From: Winogradskyella ursingii | GTDB taxonomy: Bacteria > Bacteroidota > Bacteroidia > Flavobacteriales > Flavobacteriaceae | Length of the DNA: 64,000 nt | Assembly (NCBI RefSeq): GCF_013403975.1 | Contig: NZ_JABFDH010000002.1 | Span: forward strand, 434,001 to 498,000 | Direction: 5' to 3' | In this document: piece after piece, positions 5,247-48,361 of the stretch | Position numbering within the stretch: position 1 is the first letter of the stretch | Layout: the number at the start of each line of letters is the position of its first letter | The notes under the pieces: generated by a model | The model's database searches: none | The model's input: the letters and a program-made list of their open reading frames with translations, nothing else | What the model was told of the DNA's origin: nothing | Program-made: the position numbers and the translations under genes

Positions 5247-8200
5247 TTGAGTAAAGTATCTATTGCCCAAACCCTCGCACAGACTTCGCAATTGCAAAAT
5301 CTGCAATCTGCTATTGCCCAACCGCAAAATAAAATACATTTAAAAGGCCTTGTAGGTTCTTCTTTTTCTCTTGTAATTTCACAAGTATTCAAATCGGCCG
5401 AACAACCGTTTTTAATTGTTTTTGACGATAAGGAAGAGGCCGCCTACTACCTCAACGATTTAGAGCAATTACTCAACGACAAAGATGTGTTGTTCTATCC
5501 AGCAAGTTACCGCAGACCTTACCAAAATGAAGAAACTAACAATGCGAATGTACTCTTACGCGCTGAAGTTTTAAACCGGATCAATTCACGTAAAAAGCCG
5601 TGTATTATTGTCACCTATCCTGACGCACTTTTTGAGAAAGTAGTCACCAAAAAAGAGCTTGAAAAGAATACGCTCAAAATTTCCGTTGGAAATGAATTAA
5701 GTATCGATTTCGTTAACGAAGTTTTATTTGAATATAAATTTAAGCGGGTCGATTTTGTAACCGAGCCAGGCGAATTTTCAGTGAGAGGTGGTATTATTGA
5801 TGTGTTTTCTTTTTCTCATGATGAACCATACCGAATCGAATTTTTTGGCGATGAAGTAGACAGCATAAGAACCTTTGATGTAGAAACCCAACTCTCTACC
5901 GAGCGTATTAAGAAAGTAAGTATAATTCCAAATGTAGCCAACAAAGCGATTGCTGAAAGCCGAGAGAGTTTTTTAAAATATATTTCTAATAAAACAGTGG
6001 TGTTTTCAAAAAATGCACCCCTTTTATTTTCCAGAATTGATGAGTTTTATACTAAGGCCGAAGAGGCGTTCAAAAATCTAAACTCAGAAGTTAAGCATGC
6101 CGAACCCGAAGAATTATTCTGTAATTCTGAATTATTAAAGCGTCAATTGTTGGATTATAGCTTGGTTGAGTTTGGTACTTCGGCTACGCTCAGCAGCCAA
6201 GATGTTTCTTTAGTCACCGAGCGAAGTCAAAGTGACAGGAGTGTAATCGCTTTCAATACAAAACCACAACCAGCGTTCAACAAACAATTCAATCTTTTGA
6301 TTGAAAACTTAAATACCAATCACGACAACGGTATTACCAATTATATTGCCTGTGTTAGTGAGCAACAGGCTAAACGGTTTCATGATATTTTTGATGATGC
6401 CGAAGAAGAAGTACATTACACAACTATAGTGCTGTCACTCTATCAAGGCTTTATTGATGCTGAGCACAAGATTGCTGTTTACACAGACCATCAGATTTTT
6501 GACCGTTACCATAAATTCCACCTAAAAAATGGCTACGCCAAAAAGCAGGCCATTACCTTAAAGGAACTCACCAATTTAGAAATTGGCGATTACGTCACTC
6601 ATATAGACCATGGGATAGGCAAGTTTGGTGGGCTTCAAAAAATTGATGTAGAGGGGAAAAAGCAAGAAGCAATTAAACTGGTCTATGGCGAACGTGACAT
6701 TTTGTATTTAAGCATTCATTCACTTCACAAAATTACCAAGTTTAATGGCAAGGATGGGAAACCACCAACAATTTACAAACTAGGAAGCAAAGCCTGGAAG
6801 AACCTTAAACAAAAGACCAAATCACGTGTTAAGGAAATTGCTTTCAATCTCATTAAACTGTATGCCAAACGGAAGCTCAAAAAAGGGTTTCAATATGCTC
6901 CAGACAGCCATATGCAACACGAACTGGAAGCTTCTTTTATTTACGAAGATACGCCAGACCAAGTGACCTCAACGGCAGACATCAAAGCCGATATGGAAAG
7001 TGAGCGACCAATGGATCGCTTAATTTGCGGTGATGTTGGCTTTGGTAAAACCGAAGTTGCGATAAGAGCCGCTTTTAAGGCTGTGGATAACGGAAAACAA
7101 GTAGCGGTTTTGGTCCCAACAACAATTTTGGCATATCAACACTATAGGACATTTACGGAACGATTAAAGGATTTTCCTGTTACTGTAGATTATGTAAACC
7201 GCTTTAGAACTGCGAAAGAAAAAAGAGAGACATTAGAAGGACTAGCAAAAGGCGCTGTGGATATCATAATTGGCACGCATCAATTAGCCAATAAAAATGT
7301 AAAATTTAAAGATTTAGGGTTGCTTATTGTAGATGAAGAACAAAAATTTGGTGTAGCAGTAAAAGAAAAATTAAAAACAATAAAAGAAAATGTGGATGTG
7401 CTCACATTGACGGCAACACCGATTCCAAGAACGCTTCAATTTAGCCTGATGGCAGCTCGTGATCTATCGGTAATTACCACTCCGCCGCCGAACCGATATC
7501 CAATTGAAAGTCATGTCATTCGTTTTGCCGAAGAAACCATTCGTGACGCAGTGAGTTATGAAATTCAGCGTGGTGGACAGGTGTTTTTTATTCATAATCG
7601 CATTGAGAACATTAAGGAAGTTGCTGGTATGATACAGCGTTTAGTGCCAGATGCTAAAATCGGCATCGGTCACGGTCAACTAGACGGTAAAAAACTTGAA
7701 AACCTGATGTTGGCTTTTATGAATGGTGAATTTGATGTTTTGGTCAGTACTACCATCGTTGAAAGTGGCTTGGATGTACCAAATGCCAATACTATTTTTA
7801 TTAATAATGCAAATAACTTTGGACTGAGCGATTTACACCAGATGCGAGGTCGAGTAGGTCGAAGCAACAAAAAAGCGTTTTGCTATTTTATTACGCCAGA
7901 ATATTCTGCAATGACCACAGATGCCAGAAAACGAATCACAGCGCTGGAACAATTTACAGAATTAGGAAGTGGCTTCAATATCGCCATGAAAGATTTAGAA
8001 ATTCGTGGAGCAGGTGATTTGCTGGGTGGTGAACAGAGTGGTTTTATAAACGATATTGGGTTCGACACTTATCAAAAAATATTAAACGAAGCTATTGAAG
8101 AGCTTAAAGAATCAGAATTTGCAGATTTATATAAAGATGATGGCAAACCTAAAAAATATGTAAAAGACATTACTATAGACACCAGTTTCGAATTGCTTTT

Positions 8201-8618
8201 TCCTGATGATTATGTCAATAATATTTCGGAACGTCTTAACCTCTACACCAAACTCAACGAATTAAAAACCGAAGAAGAACTGGCTAAATTTGAATCTGAA
8301 ATCATTGATCGTTTTGGAGAGTTACCAACCCAAGTTTCGGATTTATTGGATAGTGTACGCTTAAAATGGATTGCCACAAAATTGGGTATTGAAAAACTCA
8401 TTATGAAACAAGGAAAAATGATCGGTTATTTTATTCAAGATCAAAATAGCGGATTTTACCAGAGCAATGAATTTACCAAAGTGCTGCAGTTTGTACAAGC
8501 AAATGCCGATAAGTGCAAGATGAAAGAGAAAAAAACAAGAAATGGACTTCGCCTTATAATCACTTTTGAGCCGATTAAATCTACAAAACAAGCTTTAATC
8601 GCACTGTCACAAATATGA
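5247..8618 (+). CDS. mfd: Transcription-repair coupling factor
   Basis: Removes RNA polymerase stalled at DNA lesions and recruits nucleotide excision repair. The order of domains is complete: an N-terminal UvrB-homology region (with FSVRGGIIDVFS near residue 175), the RNA-polymerase-interacting CarD-like domain (GDYVTHIDHGIGKFGGL near 450), the translocase with Walker A GDVGFGKT near 594, the DEEQ box near 697, the QMRGRVGRS motif and the C-terminal TRCF domain. The start is TTG at 5247. The protein is 1123 residues long. Residues about 310-332 (6177-6240) look like an in-frame insertion of a palindromic repeat; see findings. The stop codon overlaps the next ATG by four bases. Confidence 0.95.
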   Translation: MSKVSIAQTLAQTSQLQNLQSAIAQPQNKIHLKGLVGSSFSLVISQVFKSAEQPFLIVFDDKEEAAYYLNDLEQLLNDKDVLFYPASYRRPYQNEETNNANVLLRAEVLNRINSRKKPCIIVTYPDALFEKVVTKKELEKNTLKISVGNELSIDFVNEVLFEYKFKRVDFVTEPGEFSVRGGIIDVFSFSHDEPYRIEFFGDEVDSIRTFDVETQLSTERIKKVSIIPNVANKAIAESRESFLKYISNKTVVFSKNAPLLFSRIDEFYTKAEEAFKNLNSEVKHAEPEELFCNSELLKRQLLDYSLVEFGTSATLSSQDVSLVTERSQSDRSVIAFNTKPQPAFNKQFNLLIENLNTNHDNGITNYIACVSEQQAKRFHDIFDDAEEEVHYTTIVLSLYQGFIDAEHKIAVYTDHQIFDRYHKFHLKNGYAKKQAITLKELTNLEIGDYVTHIDHGIGKFGGLQKIDVEGKKQEAIKLVYGERDILYLSIHSLHKITKFNGKDGKPPTIYKLGSKAWKNLKQKTKSRVKEIAFNLIKLYAKRKLKKGFQYAPDSHMQHELEASFIYEDTPDQVTSTADIKADMESERPMDRLICGDVGFGKTEVAIRAAFKAVDNGKQVAVLVPTTILAYQHYRTFTERLKDFPVTVDYVNRFRTAKEKRETLEGLAKGAVDIIIGTHQLANKNVKFKDLGLLIVDEEQKFGVAVKEKLKTIKENVDVLTLTATPIPRTLQFSLMAARDLSVITTPPPNRYPIESHVIRFAEETIRDAVSYEIQRGGQVFFIHNRIENIKEVAGMIQRLVPDAKIGIGHGQLDGKKLENLMLAFMNGEFDVLVSTTIVESGLDVPNANTIFINNANNFGLSDLHQMRGRVGRSNKKAFCYFITPEYSAMTTDARKRITALEQFTELGSGFNIAMKDLEIRGAGDLLGGEQSGFINDIGFDTYQKILNEAIEELKESEFADLYKDDGKPKKYVKDITIDTSFELLFPDDYVNNISERLNLYTKLNELKTEEELAKFESEIIDRFGELPTQVSDLLDSVRLKWIATKLGIEKLIMKQGKMIGYFIQDQNSGFYQSNEFTKVLQFVQANADKCKMKEKKTRNGLRLIITFEPIKSTKQALIALSQI
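6177..6240 (+). repeat. Palindromic repeat inserted in frame inside mfd
   Basis: ACTTCGgctacGCTC (from 6177) is partly complementary to GAGCGAAGT (6219-6227), and GTCAC (6213-6217) pairs with GTGAC (6232-6236). The sequence resembles the ACTTCG.CTxCGCTCAG / GTCACCGAGCGAAGTC class of dispersed intergenic repeats found in many Bacteroidota. Here it encodes a polar Ser/Gln/Arg-rich segment lacking the hydrophobic pattern of its surroundings, with the reading frame kept open. That it is an insertion relative to other Mfd proteins is from memory of the family, not from an alignment. Confidence 0.6.
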
Positions 8619-48028: not shown

Positions 48029-48361
48029 ATGATAGACCTCAAAACATACTACGCCGTAATTTTCACCTCAACACAATCTGAAGAAATTGAAGGCTATGCA
48101 GAAATGTCAGAAAAAATGGAAAGTTTAGCAAAACAACAAAAAGGTTTTTTGGGTTTTGATTCTGCGCGTAACGACACTTCGACTTCACTTAGTAACCACA
48201 TTGGGATTACCGTAAGTTATTGGGAAAATCTCGAAGCTATTAAAACCTGGAAGGCTAATTCTGCACATTTATTGGCCCAACAAAAAGGACGCAAGCAATG
48301 GTATGATTGGTATAACGTTAAAATTTGTAAAGTTGAGCATGAATATGAATTTGAAAAGTAG
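48029..48361 (+). CDS. Antibiotic biosynthesis monooxygenase-type protein
   Basis: A 110-residue dimeric alpha/beta-barrel (ABM) protein: VIFTSTQSEE, a helix to KQQKGFLGFDSAR, then IGITVSYWENLEAIKTWKAN and HLLAQQKGRKQWYDWYNVKI. Most such proteins are stress- or quinone-related oxygenases of unclear substrate. The six-base gap places it in one transcript with the macroglobulin gene. Residues about 49-58 (48175-48198) look like a short insertion derived from a palindromic repeat; see findings. Confidence 0.82.
   Translation: MIDLKTYYAVIFTSTQSEEIEGYAEMSEKMESLAKQQKGFLGFDSARNDTSTSLSNHIGITVSYWENLEAIKTWKANSAHLLAQQKGRKQWYDWYNVKICKVEHEYEFEK

Follow-up and report, generated by a model that had tools for sequence, protein, structure and literature searches.

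One loop of the transcription-repair coupling factor Mfd has probably been occupied repeatedly by small repeats that are copied widely in Flavobacteriaceae genomes and retained where the reading frame is open and the host loop is tolerant. This reading is drawn from a stretch of 64,000 nucleotides of the Winogradskyella ursingii genome (the window; G000:C14:434001-498000), followed into related genomes. In our proposal, small dispersed REP-like palindromic repeats of several unrelated families would be copied to new sites in these genomes, and the majority would land between genes. Selection would act as a sieve on genic landings, which would persist in flexible loops as long as the frame is not closed, presumably with neutral effect on Mfd. 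The Mfd loop, which runs from the EFG strand to the strand before xPQPxFNK, would thereby have been filled by different families in different lineages, and the window would hold one such occupation, a decayed inverted pair of family II arms that adds 14 codons.

A family II repeat pair in the mfd gene of the window

The mfd gene of the window (positions 5247 to 8618, plus strand) encodes a protein of 1,123 amino acids in an intact frame with the Mfd domains present. On the same strand, the left arm of the repeat (ACTTCGGCTACGCTCAGCAGC, read TSATLSS) occupies positions 6177 to 6197 and is separated by a spacer (6198 to 6212) from the right arm (GTCACCGAGCGAAGTCAAAGTGAC, read VTERSQSD; 6213 to 6236), which has one mismatch to the family II pattern. 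The DNA words picked out in an earlier note on this sequence, ACTTCGGCTACGCTCA (6177 to 6192) and GTCACCGAGCGAAGTC (6213 to 6228), are indeed present in frame, and the two inverted arms are translated together as TSATLSSQDVSLVTERSQSD, at about residues 311 to 332. Each word, with up to three mismatches allowed, matches the 64-kb window at its own position only, so the window alone gives no evidence of a repeat.

As DNA, the window copy appears decayed, with no significant hairpin detected. By eye, 16 of the 24 positions of its arms are paired, an inverted-repeat search with 6-base seeds did not report the arms as a pair, and the copy folds no better than dinucleotide shuffles (z scores of +0.26 and −0.25); the z scores of inserts from three relatives are −5.2 to −7.0. 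The shuffles and the inverted-repeat search gave no sign of a strong hairpin in this copy and do not bear out the earlier description of the element as hairpin forming.

The distance from VEFG to FNK is 26 residues in most of the Winogradskyella Mfd proteins read, compared with 40 in the window, and the resulting net gain of 14 codons (42 nt) falls at approximately 6201 to 6242 on the plus strand, the exact ends depending on the alignment. The extra codons predicted in the earlier note are therefore present, but the gain is shorter than the 64 bases first named because the left arm overlies codons that relatives with an empty loop also possess; G004, for instance, reads TSATLSNQ there. In the alignment, the length difference lies between VEFG and xPQPxFNK. 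Searches with the 360-residue Mfd segment that spans the site gave a match in 38 of 40 relatives, 390 of 397 genomes of the family, and 66 of 68 genomes of the genus. Long pieces (at least 1,062 nt) occur in 11 of these 66 genomes, namely, G000 (the host), G006, G009, G011, G012, G017 (represented by two partial matches), G448, G457, G462, G467, and G472; the remainder measure 1,029 to 1,047 nt, and the window piece measures 1,080 nt. Inspection by eye revealed a further palindrome in the Mfd linker of G467 and family II-like words in those of G011 and G012. At locus L214 (G451:C60:56500-57800), the mfd frame is interrupted by TAA stops beyond the site, which reflects either a gene that is broken or a fault in the assembly.

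When Mfd residues 1 to 551 are modeled with AlphaFold (mean pLDDT, 65.6), a strand at residues 305 to 309 precedes the site, residues 318 to 330 have pLDDT values below 50, and the next strand spans residues 332 to 335; the site is thus modeled as a loop between two strands. Because 201 of the 551 residues, some of them conserved, fall below 50, the low confidence of the loop is weak evidence for disorder. The regions that align with Escherichia coli structures all lie outside the site, so these structures do not locate it.

Family II is dispersed in the genus

In the host genome, a loose family II pattern has nine matches (reversed control, 0), comprising both mfd arms, a polA linker, two other open reading frames (ORFs), and four intergenic positions. 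The copies elsewhere in the host that the earlier note anticipated are found at this stringency, four of them intergenic, but when no more than two mismatches are allowed, the repeat is left in mfd and polA alone. Across the genus, the same limit yielded 137 copies in 28 of 60 genomes (reversed control, 0); family II is dispersed in the lineage as a REP-like repeat would be, and the host itself contributes two copies. The central suggestion of that note, a dispersed repeat carried in frame in a tolerant mfd linker, is upheld by relatives shorter by 14 codons, by the copies elsewhere, and by the modeled loop.

As expected of a REP-like repeat, family II is mostly extragenic: among the 83 of 137 copies that had flanks and could be assessed, 57 lie outside ORFs of at least 80 amino acids and 26 lie inside. 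The latter number includes every ORF copy, among them the doubtful L181, L200, and L255 (probably upstream of the actual start), L204 and L276 (close to the gene end), and the sugar-nucleotide-transferase-like L234, L248, and L265, which may be native sequence. L004 and L005 were dismissed as chance matches, and chance similarity as a general explanation is excluded by the reversed and shuffled controls. In-frame copies are found in several unrelated genes, such as those for PolA, mevalonate-pyrophosphate decarboxylase, LeuRS, PDH-E2, and others. A protein family scan covered ten proteins, of which nine represent coding copies from the set of 26: mevalonate-pyrophosphate decarboxylase (two), methylmalonyl-CoA mutase small subunit, PDH E2, LeuRS, a BioF-like enzyme, an FAD-linked oxidase, an alpha-2-macroglobulin-like protein, and a glycosyltransferase. 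The tenth is a 110-residue ORF at window positions 48029 to 48358, within which a family II-like arm (FDSARNDTSTSLSNHIGIT; 48176 to 48196) is read in frame; this ORF gave no family match in the scan.

Four of the six frames of the family II sequence are open. By translated motif, the 26 coding copies comprise 13 SLSEVEV, 9 TSTxLSD, 4 VTERSRS, and 0 LRLRSVT, with the window copy tallied under TSTxLSD although its right arm reads VTERSQS. The LRLRSVT frame, unused in these copies, is not barred altogether, as outside the genus the Mfd linker of L147 reads LRLRSV. In host polA, a family II arm lies in the linker following QFSLFG (G000:C14:301513-301536), and by eye about 9 of 30 PolA sequences (the best 30 of 65 genomes matched) have an arm at this position with a small change in length.

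Six repeat families share one Mfd loop

Besides family II, five further families were recognized in the Mfd loop of other species by their translations: VIANEVKQS...RND (family I), CHSERSEES (III), HPELVSGSH...ILKQVQND (IV), VTSSAVEM...LDSARDD (V), and PDSYR (VI). We parsed 167 of 170 Mfd loci (all but L043, L107, and L226) into 154 distinct Flavobacteriaceae linkers, each paired with one reversed and one shuffled control. A repeat family scored below every control value in 41 of the 154 linkers, a sample that includes seven rows with short flanks and is enriched for long linkers, as 35 plus five loci were picked for a long piece among the matches listed. Matches by unit were I, 16; II, 7; III, 3; IV, 8; V, 8; and VI, 3. 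The lowest control mismatches were 8 (I left), 13 (I right), 6 (II), 10 (III), 10 (IV left), 8 (IV right), 7 (V), and 5 (VI), and the corresponding strict cutoffs of 4, 6, 4, 4, 3, 2, 3, and 2 were fixed after the controls had been seen, with family patterns partly derived from the linkers themselves. Under the stricter rather than the looser cutoffs, L137, L133, L208, L060, L080, and L112 turned to "none."

Three more families are dispersed as well, with matches in 16 of 18 genomes for family I, 15 of 17 for V, and 14 of 17 for IV (reversed controls, 0). Some of these matches fall inside Mfd itself (G009, G017, G090, G164, G247, and G298 for I; G330, G457, and G472 for V; G127, G270, and G462 for IV). 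Genome-wide searches returned no family I match in G423 and G111, though their Mfd inserts resemble family I, and no family IV match in G160, though its Mfd insert resembles family IV.

The repeats are concentrated in the loop: 66 pattern hits fall within 22,296 nt of linker, compared with 7 in the 365,310 nt that make up the nonlinker parts of the mfd ORFs, and 5 occur in 92,200 nt outside mfd ORFs, with self-complementary words scoring on both strands within the linker and outside alike. A single 16-nt word, perhaps native, accounts for four of the seven nonlinker hits, on both strands of L066 and L099; the remaining hits are located in a different loop (L039) and near the N terminus (L084 and L099). 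L039, the mfd of G017, contains three repeat units, with families I and VI represented in its linker and family II in a second loop. The Mfd loop thus seems to tolerate repeated invasion by unrelated repeats.

Probable repeated gains and possible shared ancestry

On a tree of the 154 rows built without the linker, parsimony requires at least 29 changes of presence and 36 changes when all states are considered (by family: I, 12; II, 7; III, 3; IV, 8; V, 7; VI, 3); 52 of the 151 inner branches of this quick tree are open, and the counts do not separate gain from loss. This ambiguity leaves room for an explanation by shared ancestry, according to which a few old insertions were kept, decayed, or lost, and repeated invasion is overcounted. 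Family I fits such a history within one clade, where it has similar spacers and, in the linkers inspected, a single reading frame, so that one old insertion followed by losses is likely there; decayed inserts are seen in L131, L133, and L148, and the TSATLSNQ or TSALLSNQ of several empty Winogradskyella proteins could be a remnant of the left arm. As an account of the whole series, however, shared ancestry is unlikely, because six different families share the site and because I, I+VI, II, IV, and V occupy single species of one genus amid mostly empty relatives. Within Winogradskyella, the occupied Mfd loops of G000 (II), G009 (I), G017 (I+VI), G457 (V), G472 (V), and G462 (IV) are most plausibly separate gains. 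As judged by eye, the distance between EFG and the repeat start varies from 0 to about 10 residues.

Reading frames at single sites also differ between species in two other genes, those for mevalonate-pyrophosphate decarboxylase (L188 versus L227 and L252) and the FAD-linked oxidase (L201 versus L247), which, as judged from sequence, points to independent events.

Mode of copying and choice of site

Some arms lie over sequence of native length with little or no net gain, as for the window left arm, L095 (family V), and polA. Simple insertion does not describe such arms; copy-in with replacement, or insertion followed by deletion, is favored and fits PolA and L095. A Y1 tyrosine transposase can be set aside as the mover, with no PF01797 match in the host genome; this domain is found in 19 of 41 genus genomes and is absent in the repeat carriers G009, G017, G020, G441, and G467. 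It is also conceivable, though quite unlikely in our view, that across Flavobacteriaceae the loop is a peptide sink fed by circulating palindromes through template switching that replaces native codons at short homologies, and that some of the resulting loops have acquired a function in Mfd.

Nine of the 57 noncoding family II copies (L185, L187, L190, L194, L195, L245, L259, L262, and L263) lie within loops of perfect stems of at least 8 bp, several of them terminator-like, compared with 0.14 expected from shuffled flanks or 0.52 from swapped flanks; hairpin loops may thus be a preferred target of family II. If the DNA of the mfd loop likewise drew the copying machinery, e.g., through a short homology such as TTTGGT/CAC or through hairpin loops, the site would be filled by targeting rather than by tolerance, and the FG found ahead of the TSTxLSD arm of Mfd, PolA, and the glycosyltransferase (L267) is consistent with this. 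We nevertheless regard targeting as improbable, since families and start positions differ within the Mfd loop, copies are present in many other genes, and none of the 26 coding copies is located in a stem of 7 or more.

The least probable alternative, and a very unlikely one, is that the inserts are retained because they alter Mfd or the mfd mRNA, a speculation that PMC3733652 offers for repair genes. It draws on the many REPs reported there in such genes and on the location of the two best host copies in two repair genes, mfd and polA. Against it stand the free variation of length and sequence at the Mfd site and the situation in the genus, where by our reading mfd (L202) and polA (L192) are the only repair genes among the 26 coding copies; a special link to repair genes in this genus is not borne out.

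Relation to known repeats

Coding REPs, some of them in repair genes, are already published. PMC3733652 (2013) describes in its main text intragenic CGTC and GTAG REPs, small palindromes that are single or paired; many occur in replication and repair genes, including that for DNA polymerase I, and in two Xanthomonas roughly one position of recB is occupied by different REPs. The Flavobacteriaceae repeats resemble these in being palindromes within genes, repair genes included, and in the presence of different REPs at one site, but here six sequence families share one Mfd loop across one bacterial family. The constant CGTC end is not seen, by eye, in the family II copies read, and family I often shows CGTCATTGCG (an impression from the copies read rather than a count). 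Unlike GTAG REPs with their RAYT transposase, the host repeats are not accompanied by a Y1 transposase. Compared by description only, Rickettsia palindromic elements (RPE) are similar in being in-frame palindromes in unrelated protein genes; the arms described here are about 24 nt, and the main text of PMC3733652 lists the intragenic repeats of R. conorii as RPE-4 and RPE-6 and describes RPE-1 as longer. The rarity of coding repeats outside Rickettsia, asserted in the earlier note, does not stand, given these published cases, the 26 genus copies, and the 41 of 154 linkers. The main text of PMC3733652 makes no mention of Mfd or "Flavobacteri," and no report of a multifamily landing site in Mfd was found in the open-access main text that the search covered.

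Significance

Flavobacterial proteins with segments such as VTERSRS, TSTSLSDQ, SLSEVEV, or VIANEVKQS may owe them to translated repeats, and the annotation of such segments calls for caution. Mfd, a conserved repair protein, provides a natural replicated series of in-frame repeat insertions, in which several families are found in a single loop and empty relatives serve for comparison. Through this series, it becomes testable how REP-like repeats spread without a known transposase and whether the repeats translated within repair genes merely ride along or alter repair.
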